A stretch of 64,000 nt of DNA from Leisingera sp. ANG-Vp (GTDB lineage Bacteria; Pseudomonadota; Alphaproteobacteria; Rhodobacterales; Rhodobacteraceae), in assembly GCF_000813725.1 (NCBI RefSeq), contig NZ_JWLD01000066.1, forward strand, positions 1-64,000. The letters run 5' to 3'. This document shows, one piece after another, positions 24,428-45,055 of the stretch; the stretch's first letter is position 1; each line of letters opens with the position of its first letter. The translations under genes were made by a program, and so were the position numbers. A model generated the notes under the pieces. That model was given only the letters and a program-made list of their open reading frames with translations. It was not told the origin of the DNA and ran no database searches.

Positions 24428-25552
24428 TTACAGTTCCCAGACCGCTTGCGGGTCACCCATCAGGCCGCGGTCGACGGTGATGCCCAGTCCCGGCGCATCC
24501 GGCACCAGCACGCCGCCATCCTGGACCGGCGCATCGAACTCCGCCGTCTTCAGCGTCACCATATCGCGGCAGTCCAGAATACAGCGCAGGGAGCGTTCGG
24601 GCACGGTCGCACCCAGATGCGCAATGGCCGAGAACGCCACCACCGAGCCGACCGTGTCCTGAACACTGACCGTCGCGCCCGAGGCGAGGCACATGTCCCG
24701 GTGCCGCCGCCCATGGGTCAGCCCGCCGGCCTTGGAGATCTTTAGGCCAATGCCATCTGCCACGTCTTCGGCCAGCATCAGGGCAATGTCCTCATCTTGC
24801 TGCACCAGCTCGTCCAGAATGATCGGCACATTGCAGCGTTTGCGCAGCGACATGGTCTCGCGCCAGGTCTTGCAGGGGGCCTCCAGCACAAAGTCCACCC
24901 CCTCGGGCAGCATTCGCAGCATGCGCAGAGCAGTTTCCGGCGTCAGCCCGCCATTGGCATCGACCAGGAAAAACTCGCCCGGCTGCCGGTCGGCCAGCGA
25001 GGCGCGGATGCGTTCGGCATCCAGCGCCGGGCCGCCTTCACTGTCCATCGCACCGATTTTCACCGAATGGCCCAGATACCCCATCTCGCGGTGCTGCGCG
25101 ACGCGGGCGCGCATGTCTTCCGGGCTGCCTGCGTAGATAGAGGAGATCACCGGCAGGCGTTTCCCGGTCGAGCCGCCCAACAACTCGCAAACCGGCATGT
25201 TCACCGACTTGCCGAACAGATCCCAGCAGGCCAGGTCGACGGCCGACTTGGCGTGGTTGTGGCCGACCAGCGCTTCGTCCATCGCCTCGTTGATCCGGTC
25301 CATCTGCCGCGGGTCGCGGCCCAGAAGATACGGCGCAATTTCGGCGATCCCGGCGCGGGCGCCCAAGGCGTGCGAGGCGATATAAGTGGAGCCAAACGGC
25401 GTGCTTTCGCCCCAACCCTCAAGGCCCGTATCGGTGGTGATGCGCACGAAAGACGCATCAAAGCTGCGGTACTCGCGCCCGCCCGACAGCATGTAAACGC
25501 CGCCCGAGTAGGGCAGATCCAGTTGATACAGCTCGATTTTCCTGATCTTCAT
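24428..25552 (-). CDS. Mandelate racemase/muconate lactonising enzyme family protein (enolase superfamily)
   Basis: A 374-residue enolase-superfamily enzyme with a capping domain and a TIM barrel. Metal ligands are Asp198 (VDANGG), Glu224 (LEAP) and Asp247 (LDE). Candidate bases are Lys165 (SVKIG) and Lys274 (KISKAGG), so both lysines of a two-base epimerase or dehydratase are present. The N-terminal LPYSGGVYMLSGGREY resembles cis-3-hydroxyproline dehydratase-type members as I remember them. It is clearly distinct from the HpbD paralogue at 41.7-42.8 kb. It is the last gene of an operon with a Rieske oxygenase and an aldehyde dehydrogenase, and its ATG overlaps the preceding stop (ATGA). A hydroxyproline or betaine derivative is a reasonable but untested substrate. 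Confidence 0.82.
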   Translation of the reverse strand: MKIRKIELYQLDLPYSGGVYMLSGGREYRSFDASFVRITTDTGLEGWGESTPFGSTYIASHALGARAGIAEIAPYLLGRDPRQMDRINEAMDEALVGHNHAKSAVDLACWDLFGKSVNMPVCELLGGSTGKRLPVISSIYAGSPEDMRARVAQHREMGYLGHSVKIGAMDSEGGPALDAERIRASLADRQPGEFFLVDANGGLTPETALRMLRMLPEGVDFVLEAPCKTWRETMSLRKRCNVPIILDELVQQDEDIALMLAEDVADGIGLKISKAGGLTHGRRHRDMCLASGATVSVQDTVGSVVAFSAIAHLGATVPERSLRCILDCRDMVTLKTAEFDAPVQDGGVLVPDAPGLGITVDRGLMGDPQAVWEL

Positions 25553-26643
25553 GACGCGGCATCCGGGATCATCAGCACCAGCTTGCCGGTGTGCTTCTTG
25601 CTCAGGAAATCCTCCTGCGCCGTGGCAATCTCGCTGAGCGGATAGGTTGCGGCGACCAACGGGCGGATTTCACCGGCCTCGATGTAAGAGATCAAGTTGG
25701 CGAACACCTCATCTTCCTGGAAGGTACAGCCCATCAGGGTCAGGTCCTTGAGGTACAGCGTGCGCACGTCGATCTCGCTGATCGGCCCGGCGATGGCGCC
25801 CGCGGTGGTGTAGCGCCCGCCCCGGCGCAACACATCAAGGAACGAGGGCCACTGCGGCCCGGCCACCAGATCAACCACCACATCGATGGAGCCTTCGCCC
25901 AGCTCCTTCACCAGATCGGCATTGCGGTCGACAACGCGATCGGCCCCAAGCGCCAGCACCTCATCCGCCTTGGCGGCAGAGGACAACGCAATCACGGTGG
26001 CGCCGCGGCGTTTGGCCAATTGCACGGCGGCAGACCCCACGCCGCCGGAGGCGCCGGAGATCAGCACGGTTTCCGCACCCAGACCAACCCGGTGCAGCAT
26101 GTTCTCAGCAGTGGAGTAAGCGCAGGGGATCGAGGCCAGTTCCGCGTCGGACCAGTCGCAGTTCACCGCATGGGTTTCGCGCGCCGGCGCCACTGCGAAC
26201 TGGGCAAAACCGCCGTCGCATTCGCTGCCGAAGGTCCAGCATTCATAGGGGCGGTAGTCCACATAGGTCCTTAACATGTTGCGCACCAGCACCCGCTCGC
26301 CGATCCGAGCCGGGTCCACCCCCTCGCCCACTGCGGCGATATGGCCGCACGCGTCCGCACCCTGAATGCGGGGGAACTCCAGCGGTTTTCCGGACCAGCT
26401 GGCGTCGTCATCGTTGACGCTGTCAAACCCGGCGGCACCGCCCGCGTTGGTATCGGCATCGACCGCCTTTGAGTACCAGCCGATGCGGGTGTTGATGTCG
26501 GTGTTGTTGATGCCTGCTGCGGCGACGCGGATCAGCACCTCGCCGGGGCCGGGCTGCGGCACGGCAACGTCGGTGCGGTAGTCCAGTTTCTCTATACCGC
26601 CGTGGCCGGTCAGCAGGACCGCTGCCATTTTATTGGGGATCAT
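25549..26643 (-). CDS. Zinc-less MDR-family alcohol dehydrogenase / quinone oxidoreductase-like protein
   Basis: A 364-residue medium-chain dehydrogenase with an N-terminal GroES-like domain and a Rossmann domain whose motif GASGGVGSAAVQLAKRRGA sits in the middle. I start it at ATG 26643 (MIPNKMAAVLL), with GGGAGAA 6-7 bases upstream, not at the farther in-frame start, which adds 39 residues unlike the family. Its function is NAD(P)H-linked reduction or oxidation of a small carbonyl or alcohol. It overlaps the enolase-superfamily gene and follows two hairpins in the 94-base gap after the small protein gene. Confidence 0.82.
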   Translation of the reverse strand: MIPNKMAAVLLTGHGGIEKLDYRTDVAVPQPGPGEVLIRVAAAGINNTDINTRIGWYSKAVDADTNAGGAAGFDSVNDDDASWSGKPLEFPRIQGADACGHIAAVGEGVDPARIGERVLVRNMLRTYVDYRPYECWTFGSECDGGFAQFAVAPARETHAVNCDWSDAELASIPCAYSTAENMLHRVGLGAETVLISGASGGVGSAAVQLAKRRGATVIALSSAAKADEVLALGADRVVDRNADLVKELGEGSIDVVVDLVAGPQWPSFLDVLRRGGRYTTAGAIAGPISEIDVRTLYLKDLTLMGCTFQEDEVFANLISYIEAGEIRPLVAATYPLSEIATAQEDFLSKKHTGKLVLMIPDAAS

Positions 26644-26668
26644 TGGTTTTCTCCCTTCGGATGTTAGA

Positions 26669-26730: not shown

Positions 26731-26737
26731 ACTTGTG

Positions 26738-26977: not shown

Positions 26978-26980
26978 GGC

Positions 26981-28432
26981 TCAGCCCTTCAGCGAAATCG
27001 CGATGTTCTTGGTGCGCACATAGTTATAGAGCGCCTCCAATCCCTTTTCACGGCCAAAGCCCGACTTGCCAACCCCGCCGAACGGCGTCGAGATGCCGCC
27101 CGCGAACCACTCGTTCACAAAGACCTGCCCTGCCCGCAAGCGGTTCGCAACGCGATGCGCCCGTGCAAGGTCGCGGGTGAAGACGCCGGCCACCAGCCCG
27201 AACTCGGTGCCGTTGGCCATGGCAATCGCTTCGGCTTCGGTGTCGAAGGGCGTGAAGCAGGTGACCGGGCCGAAGATCTCCTCCTGCGCCACGCGGGAGG
27301 CAGGATCCACATCTGCCAGGATGGTCGGCGCCATGAAGTAGCCCTCGCGCTCCAGCCGGGCACCGCCCGATGCCGCGCGGGCCCCGCTTTGGCGGGCGGT
27401 GGCGGTCAGGGTTTCGATGCCATCCAGCTGCCGTGCCGAGATTACCGGGGTGAGGCCCGGGTTTTCCAAACCGTGGCCGACGCTGAGGCCATTGGCCAGC
27501 GCAGCCGCGCGTTCGACGGCTTCGTCGTAGATCGAGCGGTGCACCAACACCCGCGACATGGCAGAACACACCTGGCCGGCATTGTAGAAGATGCCGCTTT
27601 GCAGGGAGGACATCAGCGTGTCGAGATTGGTGTCCTCAAACGCCACCGCTGCAGATTTGCCGCCCAGCTCCATCAGCGCGGGCGTCACCGGGTTGGCAGC
27701 GGCGCGCAAGATCGCCTGGCCGGTCGGGACCGAACCGGTGAAGACGATCTGATCGACGGCGGAGCTTTCCACCAGCCGCGCGCCTAGGTCTGCGCCGATG
27801 CCGTTCAAAATAGACACTGTCCCCGCGGGGACATCGGCGCGTTCCAGCGCCACGCCCAGCATCGCGAGCGCCATCGGGTCCAGCTCGGGTGATTTGATGA
27901 TCACTGAATTACCCGCAGCCATGGCCGGCGCCAGCGAGCGCGCGGCAATCGACACCGGGAAGTTCCACGGCACGATTTGGGCAGAGACGCCGTAGGGCTC
28001 ATAGACCGTAAAATCAGCGTAATCGGGGCCAAGCGGGATCGACTTGCCTTCGATCTTGTCGGCCATGCCGCCGTAGTATTCGAAGTACTGCGCAGCTTCT
28101 TCGAACTCGTCATGCGCCGCGCTGAGGCTCTTGCCGCTCTCCCGGCAAAGAAGTTCCGCGCCTTCATCCGCAATGCCGCGGATTTCAGCCGCGATCCGCT
28201 GCATCAACTGGCCACGTTTGGACGGCTGCATTGCGGCCAGGGCGCCGCGTTCGAAACTTGTGCGGGCAGCGTCCAGCGCTTTGGCGAGGCTCTCTTCGCC
28301 CGCCAGCGCACAATCCGCCACATGTTCCGCGTTGCCCGGGTCTTCGACGGACATGCGATTGCCGCCGTCGCCTTCGACCCAGGCACCGGCCAGGAAATTC
28401 CTGGCCAGCCCGTCGTTCAGAAAGGAACTCAT
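26981..28432 (-). CDS. NAD(P)-dependent aldehyde dehydrogenase
   Basis: A 483-residue ALDH of the betaine-aldehyde dehydrogenase-like branch. Catalytic Cys289 is in NAGQVCSAMSR, Glu255 in MELGGKS, and the cofactor loop FTGSVPTG is near 231-238. Its ATG overlaps the stop of the Rieske oxygenase gene (ATGA), so the aldehyde it oxidises may be produced in the same pathway. Oxygenative demethylation of betaines releases formaldehyde or a semialdehyde. The exact substrate is not defined. Confidence 0.85.
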   Translation of the reverse strand: MSSFLNDGLARNFLAGAWVEGDGGNRMSVEDPGNAEHVADCALAGEESLAKALDAARTSFERGALAAMQPSKRGQLMQRIAAEIRGIADEGAELLCRESGKSLSAAHDEFEEAAQYFEYYGGMADKIEGKSIPLGPDYADFTVYEPYGVSAQIVPWNFPVSIAARSLAPAMAAGNSVIIKSPELDPMALAMLGVALERADVPAGTVSILNGIGADLGARLVESSAVDQIVFTGSVPTGQAILRAAANPVTPALMELGGKSAAVAFEDTNLDTLMSSLQSGIFYNAGQVCSAMSRVLVHRSIYDEAVERAAALANGLSVGHGLENPGLTPVISARQLDGIETLTATARQSGARAASGGARLEREGYFMAPTILADVDPASRVAQEEIFGPVTCFTPFDTEAEAIAMANGTEFGLVAGVFTRDLARAHRVANRLRAGQVFVNEWFAGGISTPFGGVGKSGFGREKGLEALYNYVRTKNIAISLKG

Positions 28433-29583
28433 ACTCCGCGGCCTTTGGTCACCTGATCGGCCACCCAGGCGTGGAAGTTATGGGTCGGTCCGTCCATCGC
28501 CGGCGAGAACCGGCCGCCGTCGAACAGCTCGCCGTGGCGGCCCTTCTGCATGCCCTCAACGACAAAGACGTCTTCCTCGAACACGGTCTTCCACAGTTTA
28601 GAGTTCTCATCGCGCAAAGCGTCCAGCTCCGGCGTGTCTTCGTTCGGCTTTGCGTAATAGAGCTCGATATGCTCAACAGTGTTTTCGGTATCGACCGGTT
28701 CCAGGATGATCGCAAAGGCATGGTCGCGCTGCACACCCAGGAGGACGTTCGGGTAGACAGCCACATATTCGCCGCCCTCGTCCCACTTGCTGCTGAGCCC
28801 CTCAAAGTCCGGGAACACTTTGCCGTCTTCGCCCTTCATTTGACGATAGACCAGAGTACCCTGGCCCGAGTAATGGCCCGGCACTTCGATGTTGTAATGG
28901 TCTTCCAGGCGGGAATAGCTGTTCAGCCCCGGATGCACCCACGGCAAGTGGTAGCTTTCGCAGTAGTTCTCGACTGCCAGCTTCCAGTTTGTTTTGACTT
29001 CCAGCTTGAAGCCGGAGCCTTCGCCGCCGTGATAGACAGGGGTTTCGAACTCTTTCCAGCGCTCCAGCAGGCCTGCGTGTGCCTCTTCGAACTCCGGCGC
29101 TGTGCCGTCGACGTTCACAAAGACCACGTCGCGCCAGACGTAAGAGCGGATGCGCACCAGGCCCAGCTCGTCCAGCTTGATGTCTTCATGCTTGTTGTTG
29201 CCGGGGCCGCCCACATGCGGGGTGGAGACCAGACGGCCGTCGAGGCCATAGCACCAGCTGTGATAGGCGCAGCGGATGGCGCCGCGGATCTTGCCGGCTT
29301 TTTCGACCAGGATCATACCGCGATGGCGGCAGGTGTTCTGGAAAACGCCGATCTCGCCGTCTTTGTCGCGCACGATCAGCAGCGGCATGCCGAGGAAATC
29401 CACCGGCTTGGCATAACCCGGCTCCGGCACGTCCTTGCCAAAACCGATGCCCGACCAGTTCTTGAACAGAACCGAACGTTTCTCTTCGGCAAAAACGGCG
29501 GGGTCGATGTAATGGGCGTTCGGCAGGCCGTTTGCAACGTTGACCGGAGCCATCACCGGGGCAAGCGTGTCGTGCTTGTTCAT
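28429..29583 (-). CDS. Rieske-type oxygenase, alpha subunit (quaternary-ammonium type)
   Basis: A 384-residue ring-hydroxylating-type oxygenase. The Rieske [2Fe-2S] ligands are Cys85-His87 (CRH) and Cys105-His108 (CAYH). The mononuclear iron site is NYCESYHLPWVH with His212 and His217. The bridging residue is Glu209 instead of the Asp of aromatic dioxygenases; glutamate is known in carnitine oxygenase CntA and glycine betaine/stachydrine demethylases, which supports a quaternary amine substrate. I start at ATG 29583 (MNKHDTLAP), with GGAGAA upstream; the longer frame adds 24 atypical residues. A reductase partner is needed by this family and none is in the window. It is the first gene of the operon. 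Confidence 0.85.
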   Translation of the reverse strand: MNKHDTLAPVMAPVNVANGLPNAHYIDPAVFAEEKRSVLFKNWSGIGFGKDVPEPGYAKPVDFLGMPLLIVRDKDGEIGVFQNTCRHRGMILVEKAGKIRGAIRCAYHSWCYGLDGRLVSTPHVGGPGNNKHEDIKLDELGLVRIRSYVWRDVVFVNVDGTAPEFEEAHAGLLERWKEFETPVYHGGEGSGFKLEVKTNWKLAVENYCESYHLPWVHPGLNSYSRLEDHYNIEVPGHYSGQGTLVYRQMKGEDGKVFPDFEGLSSKWDEGGEYVAVYPNVLLGVQRDHAFAIILEPVDTENTVEHIELYYAKPNEDTPELDALRDENSKLWKTVFEEDVFVVEGMQKGRHGELFDGGRFSPAMDGPTHNFHAWVADQVTKGRGV

Positions 29584-29678: not shown

Positions 29679-30593
29679 TTAGCTGGATTCACCCGAGCCC
29701 CGATTGACCTCGTCAATCACCCAATTGCGAAGCAAACGTGCGGATTCCGACAGATCCGCATCCGCACGGCCCACCAGATGAAACCCGTGCGGCGCTGACA
29801 GCACATGCGGGCCGATCGGCACCAGCTGGCCGGTGGTCAGCAAAGGGTGCAGCAGCCGCTGCCAGCCCAGCACCAGCCCGACCCCGTCCTGCGCCGCCTG
29901 CAAGGCAACAGCATAGTTGTTCACCCGCACGCCGGGTGCGATGGGCCCCTCGTAGCCGAGCTGCGCAAACCAGTCGGCCCAGGTTGTCCAGCTTTTGTCG
30001 TCGGATTCCAGATGCAGCAGACGCTGCTGCGCCAGCTCCTCCAGCGGGCAGCCGGTAAGCCGTTCGGCCAGTTCCGCATTTCCGACAGGCACCAGGTGGT
30101 CGCGGTAGAGTTCTGTCTGCTCCAGCCGGGTGTCCCGTTCGCGCCCGTAGCGGATATAGAAATCCACATCCGGCATGCTGCGGAACTGCCGGTCGTTCAC
30201 GATCTGGTTGACGTTCACATCCGGGTTCTTGCCCCAGAAGCGCACCACCGACGGCGACAGCCACAGCGAGGCCACGGCCGAAGTGGACCCGATGGTCACG
30301 GTGTCGCCGGCCTGGCGGTCACGGATGGTCTTGAGGCTGAGGGAAATCTTTGAAAACGACGAGGCCAAGGTTTCAAACAGCGCCTCGCCTTCGTCGGTCA
30401 GTTCCACCCCGCGGTGCTTGCGCTGAAACAGCGGCGCCTGCAGCTCCGCCTCCAGCGCCTTCACCTGATGGCTGACAGCGCCGGGGGTGACAGAGAGTTC
30501 CTGGGCCGCGTTCTTGAAGCTCAGATGCCGGGCGGCAGCTTCGAAAGCAGCCAGGGTGGTGAGCGGCGGCAAGTTGTAGTGGCGGCGGGACAT
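29679..30593 (-). CDS. LysR-family regulator (GcvA-like)
   Basis: A 304-residue LysR-type regulator. The N-terminal helix-turn-helix LTTLAAFEAAARHLSFKNAAQELSVTPGAVSHQVKALE is of the GcvA branch, followed by an inducer-binding domain. It lies 95 bases upstream of the Rieske oxygenase gene on the same strand and probably controls that operon. A CATTTC-N7-GAAATG repeat (30643-30661) ahead of its own start is a candidate LysR box. Confidence 0.88.
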   Translation of the reverse strand: MSRRHYNLPPLTTLAAFEAAARHLSFKNAAQELSVTPGAVSHQVKALEAELQAPLFQRKHRGVELTDEGEALFETLASSFSKISLSLKTIRDRQAGDTVTIGSTSAVASLWLSPSVVRFWGKNPDVNVNQIVNDRQFRSMPDVDFYIRYGRERDTRLEQTELYRDHLVPVGNAELAERLTGCPLEELAQQRLLHLESDDKSWTTWADWFAQLGYEGPIAPGVRVNNYAVALQAAQDGVGLVLGWQRLLHPLLTTGQLVPIGPHVLSAPHGFHLVGRADADLSESARLLRNWVIDEVNRGSGESS

Positions 30594-30714: not shown

Positions 30715-31665
30715 CTAGCCGATCCGCCCGCGCTGCAGCATCGGGGTCACATTGAAAGCTGCCTTATAGACCCTCGAAAAATGGCCGGGGCTGTCAAAAC
30801 CGCAGGCCAAAGCGACCTCGGTCACCGAGGACTCGGTCTGGATCAGCAGGTTGCGGGCCCGTTCCAGGCGCATTTCCATGAAGTACTTCTTGGGCGAGGT
30901 GTTCAGGTATTTGCCGAACAGCCGCTCCAGCTGGCGGGTGGAAATACCGATTTCCTCGGCAATCACGGTGGGAGAGATAGGATCGCTGATATGGTCGTGC
31001 ATCATCTGGATGGCGCGGGCCAGATGGGTGTTGCGCATGCCGTTGCGCGATTGCAGCGAGACCTTCTGTTCAGCGGTTGCATTGCGCACCGCATTGTAGA
31101 CCATCTGATCCGCCACCGCGACGGCAAGGTCGTAGCCGTGTTCGCGCTCGATCAGATGCAGCATCAGATCCGCCGTGGCGGTGCCGCCGGAGGCGGGCAT
31201 ATGTTTTTCATCGGCGACAAAGACGCTGCGCACCAGGTTCACCTCCGGAAAGGCCTCCATGAAACTGTCATGGTATTCCCAGTGGATCGCCGCCTGCATG
31301 CCGTTCAGAAACCCGGCCTCTGCCAGCACCCAGGCGCCGGAGCACAGCGCGCCAACCGAGATGCCCCGCGCCCGTTCCCGGCGCAGCGCGGCCAGCAAGG
31401 GCTTGGTCACATGATTGCGCATATGAATGCCCGACAAGGCAAACAGCTGGTCGCACTTCGGGACCTCATCGAACCCGTAGTGCACCAGGGTCACCGAGCC
31501 ATTGGAGCAGGTGGCGGTCTCGCCATTCTCCGACCCGAAGGACCAATCATACAGATCCTCGCCGCTCACCAGGTTCGCAATGCGCAGCGGCTCCACCGCG
31601 CAGGAAAAGGCGAGATGCGAGAATTCCTCCACCAGGAGAAAGGCAAAATGCTGTGTCTTGGTCAT
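30715..31665 (-). CDS. GlxA-family AraC regulator (GbdR/CdhR-like)
   Basis: A 316-residue regulator with an N-terminal DJ-1/PfpI-like domain (LLVEEFSHLAFSCAVEPLRIAN; GALCSGAWVLAEAG) and a C-terminal AraC double helix-turn-helix (IAEEIGISTRQLERLFGKYLNTSPKKYFMEMRLERARNLL). The branch includes GbdR and CdhR, which activate glycine betaine and carnitine catabolism in Pseudomonas. It sits directly downstream of the betaine transporter genes, so it probably responds to a betaine or its demethylation product. Confidence 0.85.
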   Translation of the reverse strand: MTKTQHFAFLLVEEFSHLAFSCAVEPLRIANLVSGEDLYDWSFGSENGETATCSNGSVTLVHYGFDEVPKCDQLFALSGIHMRNHVTKPLLAALRRERARGISVGALCSGAWVLAEAGFLNGMQAAIHWEYHDSFMEAFPEVNLVRSVFVADEKHMPASGGTATADLMLHLIEREHGYDLAVAVADQMVYNAVRNATAEQKVSLQSRNGMRNTHLARAIQMMHDHISDPISPTVIAEEIGISTRQLERLFGKYLNTSPKKYFMEMRLERARNLLIQTESSVTEVALACGFDSPGHFSRVYKAAFNVTPMLQRGRIG

Positions 31666-31738: not shown

Positions 31739-32728
31739 TTACTTGGCTGCGGCGCGGGCGGCGTCCAGCCATCCGTCATAGGCAGCGCGGTTGGCGTCTA
31801 TCCATTCTGCTACGTGGCGGTCGATGTCATCCGAGCTGTCCTCGCCATCTGCAACTTTCTTGTTCTGGATGGAGATGTCGTTGATGCTGATCTGGGCCAC
31901 TTCGAACAGCTTTGCAGCTGCCGGGTTGGCGTCCAGGAACTCATCGGTGGCGACAATGCGGATGCTGTCCACCGCAAAGCCCAGATCCTTGCCGTTGAAG
32001 GTGGTTTCAGCCGTGGCGCCATCGGGCAGCGAGGAATAGGGCACCGCCAGGAACTCCACGTCTTCACCCGGAACAAGCTCGCCGGAGACCCAGTAGGGGG
32101 TCCAGGTGTAGTAGAGGACGTTTTCGCCGCCAGCGTTGCGGGCAACTGTGTCGGCGATGATGGCGTTATACTCACCCTGGTTGTGGCTGACGGTGTCGCG
32201 CAAGCCGAATTCGGTCAGCTGATGCTCGATCACGCGCTCGCAGCCCCAGCCGGGCACGCAGCCGGCCAGATCAGCCTTGCCATCGCCATCAGCGTCGAAC
32301 ATCGCTGCCTTGGCCGGGTCCTTCAGATCGCCCAGATTTTGCACGCCGGCCTCATAAGCCGCCTTGTTCACCAGGTAGCCCTGCAGTGCTCCGTCGATCA
32401 GGAAGCCGACCTTCTCCAGCACGTCATCGCCGCCGGATTCCTGGAAGAAGTTGTCATGCAGCTTGTTCCAGGAGGCGGTGGTGAAATCCGCGTCGCCAGT
32501 GCCCAGAGCCAGGTGCATGGTCTGGGCCAGCACTTCTTCCGGCTCGGCCACGTCATAGCCGAGGTCGCGGAGCGCCTGGAACACGATGCGGGCCTGGAAG
32601 AATTCCTCGACGGTCGGCTGGATCACCGGGCGCACGGTGACGCCTTCACCGGGATTGTCCGCCGCCAGGGCAGCGCCCGCCAGCATGGTCGTGGCTGCCA
32701 GCGCAGCCAGTGCGGTTTTTCTGAACAT
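31739..32728 (-). CDS. proX: Glycine betaine/proline betaine ABC transporter substrate-binding protein (ProX)
   Basis: A 329-residue periplasmic binding protein with a signal peptide ending AALA. The OpuAC-type fold is recognisable, with YYTWTPYWVSGELV near residue 195, where aromatic residues form the cation-pi box for a quaternary ammonium group. It is the third gene of proVWX on the minus strand. Ligand could be glycine betaine, proline betaine or hydroxyproline betaine; the neighbouring hpbD favours the cyclic betaines. Confidence 0.88.
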   Translation of the reverse strand: MFRKTALAALAATTMLAGAALAADNPGEGVTVRPVIQPTVEEFFQARIVFQALRDLGYDVAEPEEVLAQTMHLALGTGDADFTTASWNKLHDNFFQESGGDDVLEKVGFLIDGALQGYLVNKAAYEAGVQNLGDLKDPAKAAMFDADGDGKADLAGCVPGWGCERVIEHQLTEFGLRDTVSHNQGEYNAIIADTVARNAGGENVLYYTWTPYWVSGELVPGEDVEFLAVPYSSLPDGATAETTFNGKDLGFAVDSIRIVATDEFLDANPAAAKLFEVAQISINDISIQNKKVADGEDSSDDIDRHVAEWIDANRAAYDGWLDAARAAAK

Positions 32729-34802: not shown

Positions 34803-34854
34803 CGTCACCTGTCTTTCCCCCTCCAAAATCCGACTCGCATACAGCATATTTTTT

Positions 34855-34895
34855 CTCTGTACACAATTTGTATTTTCCACTAACACAATTTGAGC
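34855..34895. promoter_or_regulatory. Direct-repeat operator between proV and the GntR gene
   Basis: ACACAATTTG occurs at 34861-34870 and again at 34883-34892, exactly 22 bases (two helical turns) apart. The first copy lies in the imperfect palindrome TACACAATTTGTA (34859-34871). The placement in an AT-rich divergent promoter region next to a FadR-type GntR gene suggests the binding site of that regulator. Confidence 0.55.
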
Positions 34896-34967
34896 AATGA
34901 GGTTGCCGAACCCGTTCTGCCGCGCCATCTTGGCCGGACAGGTTCATAGGCAACGATGGAGAGTTGA

Positions 34968-36607: not shown

Positions 36608-38107
36608 ATGTCGCTGCTGACCCAGGACGAATACAAATCCATCGCCGCCAATCTGGACCTGCCCACGGGCGCGTTCATCGACGGCAAATACTGCCCGGCC
36701 GCGTCCGGCAAGACCTTTGAGACTGTGAACCCGGCCACCGGCGGGAAGCTGGCCGACATCGCGGCCTGCGGTGCCGAGGACGTGGACGTGGCAGTTGAAA
36801 AGGCACGCGAAGCCTTTGACGACGGCCGCTGGTCGCGCCTGCACCCGTCCGAACGCAAGGACGTGCTGATCCGGCTGTGCAAGCTGATGACCCGCAACGC
36901 CCGCGAACTCGCCGTGATGGAGAGCCTCGACAGCGGCAAGACCATCTATGACTGCGAAACCGTCGATGTGCCGGAAACCATTCACTGCATCAAATGGCAC
37001 GCCGAGGCGATCGACAAGATCTATGATCAGGTGTCGCCGGCGTCGGACGATCACATCGCCATGGTGGTGCGCGAACCCATCGGCGTGGTCGGCCTGGTGC
37101 TGCCCTGGAACTTCCCGCTCTTGATGCTGGCCTGGAAGATCGGCCCGGCGCTGGCAGCCGGCTGCTCGGTTGTGGTGAAACCGGCGGCTGAAACCACCCT
37201 GACCGCGCTGCGCGTAGCCGAACTGGCGATGGAAGCCGGCCTGCCCCGCGGCGTGCTGAACATCGTGCCCGGCGGCGGTGCTGACGTGGGTGAGCCCATC
37301 GGCCGCCACATGGATATCGACATGGTCTCTTTCACCGGCTCCACCGTGACCGGCAAGCGCTTTCTGACCTACTCAGCCGAAAGCAACGCCAAGGAAGTGG
37401 TGCTGGAAATGGGCGGCAAGAACCCGGCCATTGTCATGGATGACGCCGAGAATCTGGACCGCGTGGCCCAGCATATCGTAAACGGCGCGTTCTGGAACAT
37501 GGGTGAGAACTGCTCTGCCTCCTCCCGCCTGATCGTGCACAAGAACGTCAAGGCTGAGCTTCTGGAGCGTATCGCCCACCACGCCAAGGCTTGGAACGTC
37601 GGCGATCCGCTGGACCCGGAAACCCGCATGGGCGCACTCGTCTCACGGGCGCATTTCGACAAGGTCTGCGGCTATCTGGAGCAGGCAGACAACGTGGTTC
37701 TGGGCGGCAAGGCACATGACGGTGCCTTTGTTGAGGCCACCGTGGTCGAAGTGCCCGGCAATGACGCCACGCTGGCGCGCGAAGAGATCTTTGGCCCGGT
37801 TCTGTCGGTGATTGAGATCTCCGGCTTCGACGAGGCAATCCAGATCGCCAATGACACGCCTTATGGCCTCTGCGCCTCGATCTTCACCGCCAATGCCAAG
37901 CGGGCAATCCGCGGCGCGCGGGCAATCCGGGCGGGCACGGTGACGGTGAACAGCTTTGGCGAGGGCGACATCTCGACCCCCTTCGGCGGCTATAAGCAGT
38001 CGGGCTTTGGCGGCCGCGACAACTCGGTTCACGCCCACGACCAGTACACCCAGCTGAAAACCATCTGGATCGACCTGGCCGATGACGCTGACGAGGCCGT
38101 GGATTGA
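36608..38107 (+). CDS. Aldehyde dehydrogenase (PuuC/semialdehyde type)
   Basis: A 499-residue ALDH. Catalytic Cys302 is in MGENCSASSR, Glu267 in LEMGGKN, and the cofactor loop is FTGSTVTG near 242-249. The close relatives I recall act on gamma-glutamyl-aminobutyraldehyde or similar semialdehydes. In a hydroxyproline pathway the expected substrate is 2-oxoglutarate semialdehyde, produced by the preceding lyase. The gene begins 3 bases after the lyase and overlaps the oxidase. Confidence 0.86.
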   Translation: MSLLTQDEYKSIAANLDLPTGAFIDGKYCPAASGKTFETVNPATGGKLADIAACGAEDVDVAVEKAREAFDDGRWSRLHPSERKDVLIRLCKLMTRNARELAVMESLDSGKTIYDCETVDVPETIHCIKWHAEAIDKIYDQVSPASDDHIAMVVREPIGVVGLVLPWNFPLLMLAWKIGPALAAGCSVVVKPAAETTLTALRVAELAMEAGLPRGVLNIVPGGGADVGEPIGRHMDIDMVSFTGSTVTGKRFLTYSAESNAKEVVLEMGGKNPAIVMDDAENLDRVAQHIVNGAFWNMGENCSASSRLIVHKNVKAELLERIAHHAKAWNVGDPLDPETRMGALVSRAHFDKVCGYLEQADNVVLGGKAHDGAFVEATVVEVPGNDATLAREEIFGPVLSVIEISGFDEAIQIANDTPYGLCASIFTANAKRAIRGARAIRAGTVTVNSFGEGDISTPFGGYKQSGFGGRDNSVHAHDQYTQLKTIWIDLADDADEAVD

Positions 38108-39444
38108 GCCGCTACGACGCCAAGAGACTGCCCCGGCAGACCGGTGCGGCGGGATGGAATGCCATCCTGCCGCAGCAGGCCGCGCTGCCGGTGCTGGAAA
38201 GCGACCTGACCGCCGATGTGACGATCATCGGCGGCGGGTTTGCGGGCCTGTCAGCGGCCCGCCGCCTGCACCAGCTGGACCCGTCGCTGAAGGTGGCACT
38301 GCTGGAGGCCGGGCCCTTTGCCGAAAGCTCTGCCGGGCGCAATTCCGGCTTCATGATCGACCTGCCGCATGATCTGGCCTCGGACAACTACGCAGGCGAC
38401 GCGCTGGAAGCAGACCAGGCGGCCATTGCCATGAACCGCAAGGCCATCGCCTTTGCCAAAGCGGTTGCAGAAGACTGTGCCCTGGCACAGGAGATGTTTG
38501 ACCCGGCCGGCAAGATCAATGCCGCCGCCACCCGTTCAGGCGACAAGCACAACCGCGATTTTGCCGCCCATCTGGAGCGGCTGGGGGAGCCGCATACGCT
38601 TTACTCCAAAGCAGAGATGCAGGAGCTGACCGGAAGCCCGCATTACACCTCCGGCCTTTATGCGCCGGGCACAGTGATGATCCAGCCCGCAGCCTATATC
38701 CGGGCTTTGTCGGCACATCTGGCCGGGCGGATCAGCGTCTTTGAGAACTCCCCCGTCACCGGGTTCGAAAAACAGGGCCGCGGCTGGGTTGTGAAAAGCC
38801 TGAAGGGGCGCGTGACCACCGGTTCTGTCATTCTGGCCAACAATGGCCACCTGGAGAGCTTTGGATTCTGTCAGCGCCGTTTGATGCATATCTGCCTTTA
38901 TGCCTCGATGACGGAACGTCTGACGCCGGAACAGGTCCAGCGCCTGGGCGGCGAGGCGCGCTGGTCTGTGACCCCGGCGGATCCGATGGGGACATCCGTG
39001 CGGCGGGTTTCCGGCTCTTATGGTGATCGCATCCTGATCCGAACCTGCTCAACTTTTCACCCGACGATCGAAACCAGCGACATGCGCCTGCGCAACGCAG
39101 GCTGGGTGCATGACCGCAAGTTCAAGGAACGGTTTCCGCATCTGGAAGGCGTGCAGATGGAACACCGCTGGGCTGGAATGCTCTGCCTCAGCCGCAACGG
39201 ATCAGCTGCTTTTGGCGAGCTGGACCAAGGCGTTTACTCCGCCTGCTGCCAGAACGGCCTCGGCATCGCCCGCGGCACCCTGCAGGGCATCGGCGCCGCG
39301 GAATTGGCTGTTCAGGGCGGGTCGGAGATCGCCAGCCATTTCCTGTCGCAGCCGATGCCGCCGAAGCTGCCGCCAGAACCCTTTGCCTCTCTCGGTGCCA
39401 ATACCTACTTGGCGTGGAAGGAATGGCGGTCCGGGAAGGAATAG
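38104..39444 (+). CDS. FAD-dependent amine/amino-acid oxidoreductase (DAO family)
   Basis: A 446-residue D-amino-acid-oxidase-like flavoprotein with the FAD motif VTIIGGGFAGLSAARRL at residues 39-55 and a C-terminal CCQNGLGIARGTLQGIGAAEL. It resembles gamma-glutamylputrescine oxidase and other secondary-amine oxidases. The TTG start (38104) overlaps the stop of the aldehyde dehydrogenase. In this operon it may oxidise a demethylated proline or hydroxyproline to the pyrroline that the DapA-family lyase then opens. Substrate is inferred, not shown. Confidence 0.82.
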   Translation: MSRYDAKRLPRQTGAAGWNAILPQQAALPVLESDLTADVTIIGGGFAGLSAARRLHQLDPSLKVALLEAGPFAESSAGRNSGFMIDLPHDLASDNYAGDALEADQAAIAMNRKAIAFAKAVAEDCALAQEMFDPAGKINAAATRSGDKHNRDFAAHLERLGEPHTLYSKAEMQELTGSPHYTSGLYAPGTVMIQPAAYIRALSAHLAGRISVFENSPVTGFEKQGRGWVVKSLKGRVTTGSVILANNGHLESFGFCQRRLMHICLYASMTERLTPEQVQRLGGEARWSVTPADPMGTSVRRVSGSYGDRILIRTCSTFHPTIETSDMRLRNAGWVHDRKFKERFPHLEGVQMEHRWAGMLCLSRNGSAAFGELDQGVYSACCQNGLGIARGTLQGIGAAELAVQGGSEIASHFLSQPMPPKLPPEPFASLGANTYLAWKEWRSGKE

Positions 39445-39514
39445 AGTTTGGCGGGGGCTCTGCCCCCGCCGCCTGCGGCGGCTCCCCCGGGAGTATTTTC
39501 GACCAGAAAGAAGC
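39445..39514 (+). repeat. REP-like extragenic palindromic element, copy 2
   Basis: GCGGGGGC-tct-GCCCCCGC and GCCTGCGGCGGC palindromes are followed by CCCCCGGGAGTATTTTC and GACCAGAAAGAAG. It is the same kind of element as at 5415-5475, with an identical 13-base tail, again directly after a + strand operon end. Confidence 0.6.
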
Positions 39515-39602
39515 CAGCCCCTGGGCTGCGGCAGGTATTTGCAGTGCGTGCGGCGACACTATAGCCTGCAGGCGTTTCGTTCATAAATTCCGGAACAAAC
39601 CA

Positions 39603-40163
39603 TTGTCTTGCAAATCTTTATTCACAGTTGGCCTTGGTCTGTTCTTTGCGGCCATTCAGCCGGATAAGGTTTCAGCAAGCGAAGGCCAAACAAACCTTGC
39701 CCGCCGGATTAAGCATGCCTCGGTGACGGCGCCTGAGGCAGACGCCGGCGGTGGCCTGGGCCGGGGGCTCTACACGCCGCTGCTGCCCATACGGGACATG
39801 AAGGTCGATGGCTGTAGCATCACCGCGCGCTCGTATTATGCGGAGTCTGCCGCAAGGCAGGACCGCACGGTTTTAGAGATCACTTTCGATCTCAGCCGCA
39901 CAGTCATTCCTGAGCTGGATGGCAGCCCGGTTGAGTTCTGGAAACCAGACGGCCGCAAAAATGGCGGTGCCGCATCGTTCGAGTTACGGTTCCTGCCGCC
40001 TTACAAACCTGTTCTCCGAACAGCAGTGTACGGGGCCGTGCCGGAGCAGCAAGTCGGCAGTCTTCGGCTGCTGATGGAACCGTTGCCGGACGATACCCAG
40101 CCGCGGCAGCTTCTTGCACTGCTGAAAGCCTACCAGTCGCAGTACTGCACATTCGCAGGCTGA
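39603..40163 (+). CDS. Secreted protein of unknown function
   Basis: A 186-residue frame with an export signal (SCKSLFTVGLGLFFAAIQPDKVSA) starting from a TTG codon at 39603. A longer reading from 39414 would run through the REP-like element, so the shorter start is preferred, though its ribosome-binding site (GGAAC) is weak. The mature part has two cysteines (KVDGCSITARSYY and QYCTFAG) that could form a disulfide. I do not recognise a family. The end coincides with a strong bidirectional terminator. Confidence 0.55.
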   Translation: MSCKSLFTVGLGLFFAAIQPDKVSASEGQTNLARRIKHASVTAPEADAGGGLGRGLYTPLLPIRDMKVDGCSITARSYYAESAARQDRTVLEITFDLSRTVIPELDGSPVEFWKPDGRKNGGAASFELRFLPPYKPVLRTAVYGAVPEQQVGSLRLLMEPLPDDTQPRQLLALLKAYQSQYCTFAG

Positions 40164-40201: not shown

Positions 40202-40936
40202 TCAAGGCAGGCTCAGCTTGGCCATGCGGCCGCCGTCGACGGTGTAGACTTGGCCGGTGATGAAACCGGCATCCTCCGACGCCAGGAAAGCAACCAAAGC
40301 TGCCACTTCCTCCGGCTTGCCGGTGCGGGCAACCGGGTGGATGCGGCCTATTTCGCGGCGGAAGGCCTTCGGATCGGGCATGTTTTCGATGAAATCCATG
40401 TTCAGCTCTGTATCGATCCAGCCCGGCGCCACCGCGTTGCAGCGGATGCCTTCGTGCCCGTGGTCCACCGCCACTGCACGGGTGAGCCCATGCAGGCCTG
40501 CCTTGGATGCGCAATAGGCAGCGTGGCCGGGATTGCTGCCGAGACCCTCAATGGAACCGGTGTTGACGATGCTCCCCTTGGTCTTGCGCAGATGCGGCAA
40601 AGCGGCCTGGATCATCAGGAAAGGCGCCGTCAGGTTCACTGTCATGCTGCGCTGCCAGTCAGCGAGGGACATGTCCTCGACGCGCGCCTCCTGCATCATG
40701 CCGGCGTTGTTGACCAGCACGTCGAGGCGCCCTGCCCTGCTGACAGCTTCCGCTACTGCCTTCGCAGGGCTGGCTGGATCGGTGAAATCGGCGGAAATAC
40801 CTTCAAACTCCGCATCCGCTCCGCGCTGCGCGGTGAAAACGCGGGCGCCTTCGTCCGCCAAGCGGCGGGCGATGGCCTGGCCAATTCCGCTGCGGCCGCC
40901 GGTGACGAGCGCAACTTTGCCCTCAAAACGGCTCAT
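40202..40936 (-). CDS. Short-chain dehydrogenase/reductase (SDR), copy 1
   Basis: A 244-residue classical SDR. The cofactor motif is [17 protein letters not shown] is at about residues 80-83, and the catalytic YCASK follows a Ser in NTGSIEGLG. The ATG at 40936 ([11 protein letters not shown]) overlaps the stop of the second SDR (ATGA); an in-frame upstream extension runs through that gene in another frame and is not real. It oxidises or reduces a hydroxy/keto substrate in the hpbD operon. Confidence 0.85.
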
Positions 40937-41667
40937 GACACCGGTTTCCCGCCGTTCACCTCCACTAGCGCACCGCACATGTAGCGGGCGGCGCCGGAAG
41001 CGAGGAACAGCACCACATCGGCGATGTCTTCCGGCTCGGCAATGCGGCCGAGCGGCACGGTCTTGCCGAGCTCTGCCACCGCGCTGTCCGGGACAAAGCC
41101 GCGTTTGGCAAAGCCGGTGCGCAGCATCGGGGTGTTCACCTCGTTGGGACAGACCGCGTTGATGCGGATGCCCTGGTGGGCGTGATCCATGCCCATACAC
41201 TGCGTCAACGAAGCAATTGCCGCCTTTGTCATGCAGTAGAGCGCATGGTTCGGCCCCGGGTTCTTGCCGCCCCAGCAGGAGGCGGTGTTGACGATGGCAC
41301 CGCCGCCGGTTTCGGCCATCAATGGGATGGCGGCGCGGCAAATGCGGAAAGGCGCCTCGACATTCACGCCCATCGACAGGTCCCAGTCGGCGTCCGAGGT
41401 TTCGGTCACCGGGCCGCGGGTGATGACACCGGCGTTGTTGATGACAATGTCGAGGCCGCCTAGCGCCTCTGCTGCCGCTTGCGGCAGGGCGTTAGCATAG
41501 TCTGCGTCCAGCAGGTCGCCGGGTAGATGCGCTTCGGCTTCGATGCCGCTGGTGTCGCGGTCGGCTGCAGCAACCTTGGCGCCCGCTGCGCGCAGACGCT
41601 TGACGATGGAGGCGCCGATTCCGCCCGCCGCGCCGGTCACCAGCGCGCACTTTCCTTGGAATTCCAT
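40933..41667 (-). CDS. Short-chain dehydrogenase/reductase (SDR), copy 2
   Basis: A 244-residue classical SDR with [13 protein letters not shown] at the cofactor site, NNAG, and the active-site YCMTK preceded by Ser in NTASCWGG. It lies 14 bases downstream of hpbD and overlaps the other SDR gene. The two SDRs are only moderately similar, so they may act on different intermediates rather than being a recent duplication. Hydroxyl-group oxidation of a hydroxyproline derivative is a plausible but unproven role. Confidence 0.85.
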
Positions 41668-41681
41668 GTTTCCTCACTCAC

Positions 41682-42785
41682 TCAGAAGGATGCAACCGGA
41701 GCGCCGAACAGGCTCTCGTCCGGGGTGATGCCCAGGCCCGGGCCTTGCGGCACAGCGATGTGGCCGCCCTCGATGCGGATACCGTTTTCCGCGTCGTAAT
41801 TGCCCTCGATGTAAGGCGCGGCCAGCCAGACACCCTCAAGGTTGCCTGGCTTCACGGTGGCGCCGATATGGGTGCAGGCGGCGGCGATGATGTCGCCGCC
41901 CCAGCTGTCATCGCAGGTATGCGGCAGGTTGCGGGCCTCGCAGATGTCGCGGAAGGCGCGCATGGGCTGCAGCCCGCCGATGCGCGTGACCTTCATGCCA
42001 AAGCCGTCGACCAGACCGGTGCCGGCCGCGGTGATCACCGTGTTCAGACTGGTGCTGTTTTCATCCATGTAGAGGCCATGGGAGATCTGCGGGCGGATTT
42101 TCTGCAGGTCTTCCAGCGTGTTGCAGGGCTGTTCCATGATAAAGGGAATCTCGGGGCACTCGCGGCTGACGCGCAGGGCGTCGCGTGTGGTCCAGCCGCG
42201 GTTGCCGTCCACCGCCAGCTTCATGCCGGTTCCCCGGACCTTCTCCCAGACCTTGCGGATGGTCTCGATGTCCAGCTCCACCGGGCGGCCGCCGACCTTG
42301 ATCTGCAGGCGGGGATAGCCCTCGGCCAGCTTCTCGGCCGCCAGCCGGGCGATGCCATCCGGCGCGCCAACGCCGGTCGCGTAGTAGGAAGGCACCCGCT
42401 CCGTAGCCGCGCCGCCCAAGAGGTCTGATACGCTGACGCCCAGATGCTTGCCCAAGAGGTCATGCGCGGCGATGTCGATGGCGGCCTTGGCGTAGTTGTG
42501 GCCGGTCAAGAGCCCGTCCATGCGGCGGTGCAGGCTCACGGGCGCAACCTCGGCTCCGATCAGGCCCTCTGACATCGCTTTCAGCGCCGCACGGGCACCT
42601 CCAGCGTGGGATTCGGCGTAAGTCGGGCCAACCGGGCAGGTTTCGCCCCAGCCCACCTGGCCGTTGTCCGCCACCAGTTTCACCAGCGTAGTATCAAGCG
42701 CCCAGACCTCGGCATTGGCCATTGTGTAAGGGCCGTTCTTGACCGGCAGATCATGCTGGAAGACGTGGATTTCTGCGATTTTCAT
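41682..42785 (-). CDS. hpbD: 4-hydroxyproline betaine 2-epimerase
   Basis: A 367-residue enolase-superfamily enzyme that I recognise as very close to HpbD of Pelagibaca bermudensis, which epimerises trans-4-hydroxy-L-proline betaine to the cis-D form at the start of its degradation. All catalytic residues fall at the same positions as I recall for that enzyme: bases Lys163 (QIKVGG) and Lys265 (GMKVTRIGG), metal ligands Asp193 (VDGN), Glu218 (MEQP) and Asp241 (MDEN). The N-terminal [10 protein letters not shown] and [22 protein letters not shown] also match. Its neighbours (betaine transporter, Rieske oxygenase, MttB, DapA-family lyase, semialdehyde dehydrogenase) supply the other expected steps. 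Activity on proline betaine is also known for the family. Confidence 0.9.
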
Positions 42786-42822
42786 CTGTGTTTCCCATGT
42801 TGGAGGTAGAAGGCTGGCGGGG

Positions 42823-43374
42823 TCATTTGATCCCCGCCGCCAGCAGAATGGTATTGCCGCTGCGCAGGGCGGTGGCAGCGGCTGCCTTGGGGCCGTGGAA
42901 CCGGGCGGCCTCGGTCAGCCCCTCGTGCAGCAGAAAAAGCGCGGCCGAGAGGGCTTCAGCGTCGCAATCCGGCGCTGTGTGCAGCAGGCGTTTGCGGAAT
43001 TGCGCCTGCAGCCGGGTCTTGTGGCCTTCGACCGCCTGGCGGATTGCTTCACTGTCCGGATAGGCGGCGAGTGCGTTCAGAAACAGGCAGCCGGTGCTGG
43101 ACACCTGCTCCAGCCAGTCGCCAAGACGCGCCAGCGGGTACAGCACATGCGCAGCCCCCTGCCCCGGCCCTCCGGCAATCCAGTCGTTGTAGGCCTGGTC
43201 GCGGTACTCCAGCGCACCCAACACCATTGCCTCGCGGCTGGGGAAGTATTTGTAGAGCGTCCGCAGTGAAACGTCGGCACCAGCCCGCAGGGCTTCGACG
43301 CCCTGGGTGGCAAATCCCATTTCGGCAAACTGGCGGTCCAGGCTCTCGGCTATTTTGTGCTGTGTCTCAGTCAT
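42823..43374 (-). CDS. TetR-family regulator
   Basis: A 183-residue repressor with an N-terminal helix-turn-helix ([36 protein letters not shown]) and a ligand-binding C-terminal half. Start ATG 43374 ([11 protein letters not shown]) is chosen because the longer frame runs across a perfect palindrome at 43383-43402 that is evidently its operator. It lies between hpbD and the second MttB gene and probably controls the hpbD-SDR transcript and itself. Ligand may be a betaine. Confidence 0.85.
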
Positions 43375-43382
43375 AACCGCAC

Positions 43383-43402: not shown

Positions 43403-43446
43403 CCGGACTTGCAGAATTCCGACCCCTGCCCCGGCCTCAACCGACA

Positions 43447-43475
43447 TAAAAAAACCCGCCCTTTGCAGGACGGGT
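43447..43475 (-). terminator. Rho-independent terminator of the second MttB gene
   Basis: On the minus strand ACCCGTCC (43475-43468) pairs with GGGCGGGT (43461-43454) around a 6-base loop and is followed by a run of seven T. It starts about 24 bases after the MttB stop. Confidence 0.85.
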
Positions 43476-43498
43476 CAGTCGGGGGAGGAGAGAGTGGA

Positions 43499-45055
43499 TC
43501 AGTAATCCTGGTTCAGCTCGTCCGCGGCAGGGATTTCCCGTTCGCGCCGGGCGATGTAGTCCAGCAGCTCTTCGTTCTTGGCTTCGTCCAGCTTCGGTTC
43601 CTGGTATTCGGCCAGCAGTTTCTTGGCGTGAGTCAGCGCACGTTCGGTGATTTCGACGCTGCCCTCGGCCTGCCACTGCTCAATCGAATTATTGTCGAAC
43701 ATGTCGGGCATGAAGAACGCCTGCTGGAAGTTCTCCTGGGTGTGCGGGTGGCCCAGGTAATGGCCGCCGGGGCCAACGTCCGGCACAGCAGAGATCGCCT
43801 GGTCAAAGTCATCCCATTTCGGGCCTTCCGCCATCCGGTAGGCCATGGCGCATTGCTCGGCATCGACGATGAATTTGGCGACAGAGCAATGCATGCCCGC
43901 CTCGTTCCAGCCTGCAGAGTGCCAGATGTAGTTGGCACCCGCGTGCATGACGGCGGACAGGGTGGTCGCGGATTCGTAGCCGGCCTGCGCGTCGAAGGTC
44001 TTGGCGCCGCCCAGAGTGTTGGAGGTCCGCCATGGCACATCGTAATAGCGCGCCATCTGGCCGATCATGAAGTTCATCAGGCTGATCTCAGGCGTGCCCG
44101 CCATCGGGGCGCCGGATTTCATGCTGACGGTGGACAGGTAGTGGCCGTAAATCGCCGGGGTGCCCGGGTTGCAGACCTGGGTATAGGCCAGCGCCGACAA
44201 TGCTTCAGCGTTCAGCTGCGCAACCGAGGCCGCAACCGAGGCCGGGGTGTTGGCGCCGCCCAGAACAAAGGGCGAGCAGAGCACCGGCTGGCGCCGCTTG
44301 CCAAAGGCCCGCATGGCGCCCAGCATGGTTTCGTCCCAAACCAGCGGCGAGTTGCCGTTGCAGTTGCCGGTGGTGACAGGGTTGTTCATGATGAAATCTT
44401 CGCCGAACAGTATGGCACACATATCCATCACGTCCTCGGCGTTCTTGGGGCTGGTGGTCATGCCCATGAACGTCTTGTCCGAATACTTCATCGACGAATA
44501 GGTGATGCGCAGGTGACGCTGGCTGATCGGGTGGTCGTAAGGCTCAACGATGTGGTGCGCCGAGGAGTGCATGGCCGGCATCATATGCGCCAGCTTGTGG
44601 AACATCGCCAGATCTTCCAGCAGCGGGTTGCGGCGCACGTCCTCCAGATCGCGCAGGAACGGCGCGCCGGTCATCGGCACAAAGATCGAATGCTTGCCGC
44701 CCAGATGCACGTTCTTTTTCGGGTCGCGCGCGTGGTAGGTGAAATCGCTCGGAATGGTCTTGATCAGCTCGCGCACCAGTCCGCGATCGAGGTAGACAAG
44801 CTCGCCGTCGACCTTGGCACCAGCGCGTTTCCAGTCTTCCAGCGCGATTGGGTCACGGAACTGAACGCCGACATTCTCCAGAATGTCCATCGACGCATTG
44901 TCGATCTTCTCGACCTGGCTTGCATCCATCACCTCGCAGAGGGGGATATTGCGGGTGAGCCCGGGGAGCATGTCGAATTTCGGCGCAGTGCGCAGGGCGC
45001 GGCGGGCGTGGCGGCCGCCGGAACGCGAGCGGGTCGCGGTGGCTTGCTCAGTCAT
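43499..45055 (-). CDS. MttB-family (trimethylamine methyltransferase-like) protein, non-pyrrolysine, copy 2
   Basis: A 518-residue MttB homologue with no in-frame amber codon. The start at ATG 45055 (MTEQATATRS) has AAGGAGAA 12 bases upstream; the 29-residue upstream extension is not family-like. The basic N-terminus (RSRSGGRHARRALR) mirrors the first copy. Within the superfamily, members act on glycine betaine, proline betaine, carnitine and related compounds. Its place next to hpbD and a TetR regulator suggests a cyclic betaine. It forms a single-gene transcript ending in the terminator at 43447-43475. The cognate corrinoid protein is not in the window. Confidence 0.85.
   Translation of the reverse strand: MTEQATATRSRSGGRHARRALRTAPKFDMLPGLTRNIPLCEVMDASQVEKIDNASMDILENVGVQFRDPIALEDWKRAGAKVDGELVYLDRGLVRELIKTIPSDFTYHARDPKKNVHLGGKHSIFVPMTGAPFLRDLEDVRRNPLLEDLAMFHKLAHMMPAMHSSAHHIVEPYDHPISQRHLRITYSSMKYSDKTFMGMTTSPKNAEDVMDMCAILFGEDFIMNNPVTTGNCNGNSPLVWDETMLGAMRAFGKRRQPVLCSPFVLGGANTPASVAASVAQLNAEALSALAYTQVCNPGTPAIYGHYLSTVSMKSGAPMAGTPEISLMNFMIGQMARYYDVPWRTSNTLGGAKTFDAQAGYESATTLSAVMHAGANYIWHSAGWNEAGMHCSVAKFIVDAEQCAMAYRMAEGPKWDDFDQAISAVPDVGPGGHYLGHPHTQENFQQAFFMPDMFDNNSIEQWQAEGSVEITERALTHAKKLLAEYQEPKLDEAKNEELLDYIARREREIPAADELNQDY

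Follow-up and report, generated by a model that had tools for sequence, protein, structure and literature searches.

We analyzed a 64,000-nucleotide stretch of the Leisingera sp. ANG-Vp genome (hereafter, the window), which comprises the first 64 kb of contig C107 in an assembly of 5.15 Mb in 143 contigs. Our subject is a betaine-catabolic island at positions 24428-45055, built around the gene hpbD. On balance, we lean toward the view that this island encodes a cobalamin (B12)-dependent variant of the known hydroxyproline-betaine/proline-betaine pathway, with side branches. Gene content, synteny, catalytic residues, and the clade of the island's MttB-superfamily methyltransferase were observed directly, and every reaction assigned here is a prediction. 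Hydroxyproline betaine is a salt-protecting compound, and an island of this kind on a plasmid-type replicon looks made for its use as food. Where studied relatives have an oxygen-dependent enzyme, the island appears to carry a B12-type methyl remover. If so, hydroxyproline betaine is degraded with cobalamin instead of oxygen in some marine alphaproteobacteria (18 of the 296 sampled genomes of the family have hpbD), and another osmolyte would be tied to the B12/folate/methionine hub that sections of PMC12478193 describe for glycine betaine.

HpbD and its recurrent neighbors

The product of positions 41682-42785 (minus strand) is an HpbD orthologue, with predicted function as a 4-hydroxyproline betaine 2-epimerase/proline betaine racemase. 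In full-length phmmer comparisons with solved chains, it matched 4e8g with 636 bits and both 2pmq and 4h2h with 602 bits. The initial annotation had named K163, D193, E218, D241, and K265 as its catalytic residues; they lie at exactly these numbers, and each is kept in 49/49 rows of an alignment of sequences with at least 50% identity, in which the window is included twice and many rows are near-copies. W295 and W320 are also kept in all 49 rows. We take Trp320 to be the position at the quaternary nitrogen.

Genome samples consisted of 296 members of the family and 387 of the class. HpbD was called at E≤1e-120 and a second enolase-superfamily enzyme, ENO2, at E≤1e-100, with the source genome included in each count. 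Besides the 18 family genomes, HpbD was found in 4/387 class genomes, and ENO2 occurred in 9/296 and 3/387, respectively. Outside the source genome, there were 21 hpbD loci (18 from the family and three from the class), taken as stretches of up to 20 kb. Four of these are shorter than 17 kb owing to contig ends, and in L133 and L142 hpbD lies less than 4 kb from the contig's first base. A neighbor was defined as a gene within 10 kb of hpbD above an identity limit set for each gene; the counts are tblastn placements, a simple open reading frame caller having missed genes in L022 and L141.

The genes that recur most often beside hpbD are two short-chain dehydrogenases, SDR1 and SDR2 (13 of the 21 loci each), followed by MttB (12), an FAD (flavin adenine dinucleotide) oxidase (10), a DapA-family enzyme, the aldehyde dehydrogenase ALDHc, and a GntR regulator (nine each), the medium-chain reductase MDR (seven), and the permease ProW (six). 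TetR was near hpbD in five loci, ENO2 and GlxA in four each, and HpbA in two; HpbB1, HpbC1, and proline racemase were found once each, and the window's Rieske gene in none. SDR2 (40933-41667, minus strand), 14 nt from hpbD in the window, is its same-strand neighbor at no more than 450 nt in 12 of the 21 loci. SDR1 (40202-40936) lies on the same strand, and both dehydrogenases have the YxxxK motif. A near-complete cluster from ProXWV to MttB, including HpbA (47%), is present in L140, and L141 has a similar cluster without ProXWV and HpbA.

Four genes of the island lie on the plus strand. These encode the GntR regulator (34968-35678; PF07729/PF00392), the DapA-family enzyme (35687-36604), a likely deaminase of pyrroline-4-hydroxy-2-carboxylate (Pyr4H2C), ALDHc (36608-38107), a likely 2-oxoglutarate semialdehyde dehydrogenase, and the DAO-family FAD oxidase (38104-39444; PF01266), a likely cis-4-hydroxy-D-proline oxidase. 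A triad from the DAAO, DHDPS, and aldehyde dehydrogenase superfamilies is given as the cis-4-hydroxyproline (c4Hyp) catabolism set in parts of PMC4113996. On the minus strand, a betaine ATP-binding cassette (ABC) transporter comprises the ATPase ProV (33726-34928, start uncertain), which exceeds the TIGR01186 cut-off (363 versus 327 bits), the permease ProW (32778-33713), which at 354 bits is below its own cut-off of 439, and the binding protein ProX (31739-32728), which exceeds its NCBIfam cut-off (409 versus 215 bits). The same strand carries an AraC-family regulator of the GlxA/GbdR-like type (30715-31665), for which the earlier label "GbdR-like" is apt at 299 bits against a cut-off of 480, and a TetR regulator (42823-43374; PF00440).

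The genes named in the initial annotation are all open frames in the island and belong to the families it gave. Its description of an hpbD-centered betaine island with a transporter, an FAD oxidase, a DapA-family lyase, and a semialdehyde-type dehydrogenase is upheld. It had counted a single aldehyde dehydrogenase; the semialdehyde-type dehydrogenase is present, but the island has two aldehyde dehydrogenase genes, at 26981-28432 and 36608-38107.

A candidate cobalamin-linked demethylase

The gene at 43499-45055 (minus strand) encodes an MttB-superfamily methyltransferase of an hpb-linked clade, with a PF06253 domain scoring 715 bits. It has no in-frame stop and is therefore not a pyrrolysine form. 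Within 10 kb of hpbD, MttB occurs in 12/21 loci versus 1/21 for the Rieske pair HpbB1/HpbC1. That single locus (L144, genome G632) also has MttB, with HpbB1-HpbC1-MttB-HpbD-SDR2-SDR1 in a row, so that an operon-like run holds demethylases of both kinds. Hpb-linked copies share 77-97% identity with the window's MttB, compared to 50% for a copy from Aminobacter and at most 43% for seven other copies in the source genome. The latter has 18 MttB matches; eight were taken as loci, the window's own among them. The tree comprised 41 rows, of which 30 fall on one side of a branch with support 100/99; 21 of these have hpbD, and nine have DapA or the FAD oxidase with hpbD not near. On the other side are ten rows and 4yyc; the seven distinct copies from the source genome are among these outsiders, several of which have long branches that were flagged. 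Ten of the 12 MttBs near hpbD are in the tree, all within the window's clade; those of L133 and L155 were left out.

A corrinoid partner can also be proposed. On an Aminobacter plasmid, the genes for MttB, an ABC binding protein, a B12-binding protein, and HpbD (57%) form a run, and this B12-binding protein is 82% identical to the sole B12-binding_2 protein found in the source genome. The gene for the latter, at C24:59103-59801, is followed by a DUF1638 gene, and a homocysteine methyltransferase gene lies no more than 2 kb upstream. Sections of PMC12478193 place a DUF1638 protein of P. inhibens two locus numbers from MtgC and a homocysteine subunit two locus numbers from the corrinoid subunit, and they describe MtgC as a shared corrinoid protein in genomes with up to seven pfam06253 genes. 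Given this shared MtgC and the 18 MttB-family matches for one B12-binding_2 protein here, the most economical reading would be a hub in which many MttBs, including one that serves the hpbD pathway, share a single corrinoid protein.

The following pathway can be drawn. ProXWV would import the betaine, and HpbD would epimerize C2. One N-methyl group would then be passed by the MttB-clade enzyme to the only B12-binding_2 corrinoid protein found in the genome, and from there to the folate/methionine pool, a step that would stand where Paracoccus has HpbB1/HpbC1. The second methyl group may be taken off by an HpbA-like enzyme from outside the island; an HpbA orthologue with 67% identity is present on contig C93. 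The FAD oxidase, DapA-family deaminase, and ALDHc would convert cis-4-hydroxy-D-proline to 2-oxoglutarate. ENO2 with MDR, and SDR1 with SDR2, are predicted members of the pathway that would bring in other ring-hydroxy forms; the initial annotation's suggestion that the extra enzymes extend it to other isomers is no more than a guess. A Rieske-ALDHa-P79 unit would add a further route that depends on oxygen and probably acts on a related quaternary amine. Among the papers listed by literature searches, none dealt with an MttB/hpbD pathway, judging by title or start of abstract.

Several observations weigh against a B12-dependent pathway of this kind. In nine of the 21 hpbD loci, some of which are cut short by contig ends, MttB and HpbB1/HpbC1 are both missing within 10 kb, and genes of the MttB clade are also found in loci where hpbD is not nearby. 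HpbA is not in the island. The source genome has 23 DMGDH-like (DAO+GCV_T) query matches in addition to the 18 of the MttB family, so many other candidate demethylases are at hand. In stretches of Sulfitobacter, Shinella, Acinetobacter, and genome G462, ENO2 and MDR are present but hpbD is not. Lastly, part of the B12 reading may already be in print in the original R. sphaeroides work.

Other MttB genes were observed in the source genome. The window has a second MttB-family gene at 3876-5414 (plus strand; PF06253, 677 bits) with a near-copy on contig C117, and it is accompanied by a sarcosine-oxidase-alpha/GCV_T type gene at 19-2358. In L164 (G000:C86:1-19900), an MttB gene at C86:14193 shares the stretch with three different enolase-superfamily genes in a row, upstream of which are MDR-like and DMGDH-like genes.

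Association of ENO2 and MDR with hpbD

ENO2 (24428-25552, minus strand) has 2ps2 and 2pce as its nearest solved chains, and MDR (25549-26643, minus strand) is a medium-chain reductase without the catalytic-zinc cysteine. HpbD and ENO2 are both present in 6/296 family genomes versus 18×9/296 = 0.55 expected (hypergeometric P = 1.6e-6, or 1.7e-5 without the source genome, with the relatedness of genomes ignored). In four of the six (G419, G555, G620, and G671), ENO2 adjoins hpbD on the same strand, 3-13 nt apart. MDR (at least 48% identity) lies within 1.8 kb of ENO2 (at least 50%) in 31 of 35 loci, but these are not independent, since 17 of them come from the window itself, from Leisingera, or from their near relatives. 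MDR also stands beside hpbD without ENO2 in L016, L082, L148, L149, and L154. Consequently, the earlier placement of the second enolase and MDR with hpbD is borne out by adjacency in four other genera of the family sample. The description of the island as "composite" was half right: the Rieske-P79 unit is separable, but ENO2-MDR, which in the window belongs to the Rieske operon, lies within the hpb cluster of other genera.

The island might instead be two unrelated ones: the hpb genes, and a Rieske-ALDHa-P79-MDR-ENO2 operon for some other quaternary or N-methyl compound, carnitine- or homarine-like. We regard this as possible but would not bet on it. It is favored by a stretch of L. aquaemixtae that has the Rieske operon without hpb genes, by an Acinetobacter record in which a Rieske-ALDH pair and TetR-MDR-ENO2 are approximately 10 kb apart, and by the absence from ENO2 of the two tryptophans of HpbD. 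However, ENO2 and MDR adjoin hpbD in other genera, so at least the ENO2-MDR half is not unrelated. The Rieske-ALDHa-P79-MDR-ENO2 operon had also been considered as an independent module, from L. aquaemixtae and Cereibacter; for ENO2-MDR, this was refuted by four genera in which hpbD and ENO2 are adjacent.

All five catalytic positions are kept in 36/36 rows of the ENO2 alignment (window included twice), with Val, Thr, or Ile at the position of HpbD Trp295 and Leu or Val at that of Trp320. A quaternary nitrogen, if bound by ENO2, would thus be bound differently. Neither ENO2 (315 bits) nor HpbD (257 bits) reaches the 500-bit cut-off for cis-3-hydroxy-L-proline (c3LHyp) dehydratase. A carnitine racemase role, also considered for ENO2, gained no support from the literature listed. 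The catalytic-zinc cysteine of zinc alcohol dehydrogenases lies in the motif G-x-C-x-[ST]-D. MDR has GINNTD at this site, and across 39 rows NNTD shows conservation at the 97% level. Without that cysteine, MDR is more likely a reductase of C=C or C=O bonds than a zinc alcohol dehydrogenase. A speculative extension, to which we give little weight, is that ENO2 and MDR form an enolase/ene-reductase couple that, with SDR1/SDR2, brings 3- and 4-hydroxy isomers together in a single B12-dependent pathway. ENO2 would dehydrate a 3-hydroxyproline-type compound, either a betaine or an N-methyl amine, creating a C2=C3 double bond, which in the case of a quaternary nitrogen could not become a ring imine. 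MDR would reduce the double bond, so that proline betaine or (N-methyl)proline could enter the pathway, and SDR1/SDR2 would invert C4 via a ketone. Whatever the reaction, adjacency to hpbD gives a genomic handle on the uncharacterized enolase group nearest 2ps2 and 2pce.

ENO2 and MDR keep varied company elsewhere. In L151, ENO2 (64%) is among a run of five enolase-type matches, with MDR also present. The Acinetobacter baumannii record (L022, a gammaproteobacterium) has TetR-like, MDR (76%), and ENO2 (78%) genes in one run, with an ALDH (56%) and Rieske (50%) pair approximately 10 kb away. In Sulfitobacter and Shinella (L023 and L024), ENO2-MDR is near genes for a 2-oxoacid dehydrogenase complex, acyl-CoA dehydrogenase, and acetyl-CoA acyltransferase. 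MDR-HpbD-ENO2 in L138 (G419) is followed on the opposite strand by genes of the enoyl-CoA hydratase, ADP-forming acyl-CoA ligase, and acyl-CoA dehydrogenase types.

The Rieske-ALDHa-P79 unit

The Rieske-P79 genes form a separate unit that is often near hpb genes. The unit lies on the minus strand and consists of a quaternary-ammonium-type Rieske oxygenase (28429-29583), the second aldehyde dehydrogenase, ALDHa (26981-28432), and P79 (26738-26977), a 79-residue protein of no family, with a LysR regulator at 29679-30593. Among the 80 closest of 287 Rieske relatives, examined with 10-kb flanks, P79 is near the Rieske gene in 73 loci, LysR in 61, and ALDHa in 25. A DAO-GCV_T dehydrogenase is present in 36, a BCCT transporter in 18, HpbD and MDR in 16 each, a Fer2 reductase in 15, and ENO2 in 14. 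Ruegeria and Leisingera dominate these loci, so the counts are not independent. The dehydrogenase, BCCT transporter, and reductase are absent from all 12 Leisingera-group loci and also from the unit in the window. One stretch of Paracoccus onubensis (L058) holds the reductase, LysR, Rieske, ALDHa, P79, dehydrogenase, BCCT, TetR, MDR, ENO2, and HpbD. The Rieske operon with its LysR gene may resemble the gene set for homarine.

The initial annotation had assigned the Rieske enzyme to the pathway as its known demethylase. In this scenario, it would be the first N-demethylase, as in Paracoccus, and MttB would serve another amine. Related Rieske enzymes do act on quaternary amines, and the 80 closest loci include 19 with MttB (at least 70% identity) besides the 16 with hpbD, mostly from Ruegeria and Leisingera. 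However, the enzyme has 23% identity to HpbB1 (95 bits) and is not its orthologue; its best solved match is carnitine monooxygenase, with 110 bits. In L061, a homolog of the Rieske gene stands side by side with HpbB1. A reductase was not found among the genes of the window's Rieske operon, a Cereibacter stretch has the hpbD cluster without a Rieske gene, and the Rieske gene is near hpbD in 0/21 loci, where MttB is found far more often. We therefore consider a Rieske-first pathway rather unlikely, and the earlier assignment is not supported.

Replicon and remaining genes

The island adjoins a repABC region in which repA, repB, and repC, for replication and partition, occur in order at 45535-49004 (plus strand), with AAA_31/MerR, RepB, and RP-C domains. 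The nearest records in the plasmid collection are Leisingera plasmids, on which the island is seen again; an L. thetidis plasmid covers 93% of it at 87% identity and does not have the TetR gene. A chance build-up of catabolic genes beside repABC, conceivable in that repA starts less than 500 bp from the MttB gene and replicons of this kind gather accessory genes, is highly improbable, given that several genera carry overlapping gene sets in different orders, both on plasmids and on contigs longer than 1 Mb, and that HpbD co-occurs with ENO2 in six genomes versus 0.55 expected. An open frame of 249 residues at 39414-40163 (plus strand) matched no NCBIfam or Pfam family; its third-position GC is below that of its neighbors, and L. 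thetidis has no annotation there.

Comparison with known systems

The hpb pathway of Paracoccus has reportedly been set out in published work on P. denitrificans and P. bermudensis. The Paracoccus hpb cluster, on a P. pantotrophus plasmid, shares with the island HpbD, the betaine ABC transporter, and HpbA, which here is coded elsewhere in the genome. ENO2 (69%) and MDR (70%) are also shared, approximately 15 kb from the P. pantotrophus hpbD. In contrast, P. pantotrophus has the Rieske HpbB1 and a hybrid-cluster reductase beside hpbD, and MttB was not found in its 41-kb stretch; the island instead has MttB, SDR1, and SDR2. Plasmid c of Cereibacter sphaeroides carries GlxA, ProXWV, GntR-DapA-ALDH-FAD, and SDR1-SDR2-HpbD-MttB as one block in the same order as the island, whereas TetR, ENO2, MDR, and the Rieske unit were not found in its 27.5-kb stretch.

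For ENO2, the catalytic positions are matched in 4mgg, which we take to be c3LHyp dehydratase, but ENO2 is much nearer to 2ps2 and 2pce, whose entries name only the superfamily. The c3LHyp dehydratase described in parts of PMC5144071 is of the same MLE-type enolase family as ENO2. For MttB, the closest parallels are drawn from published descriptions. Glycine betaine demethylation by MtgBCD of Ruegeria pomeroyi, in sections of PMC12478193, pairs an MttB-superfamily enzyme with one corrinoid protein, as predicted for the island. The same pairing appears in parts of PMC12155760 for MtpB of Eubacterium limosum, which uses proline betaine. The island's MttB differs from both in belonging to an hpbD-linked clade, and E. 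limosum differs further in being an anaerobe.

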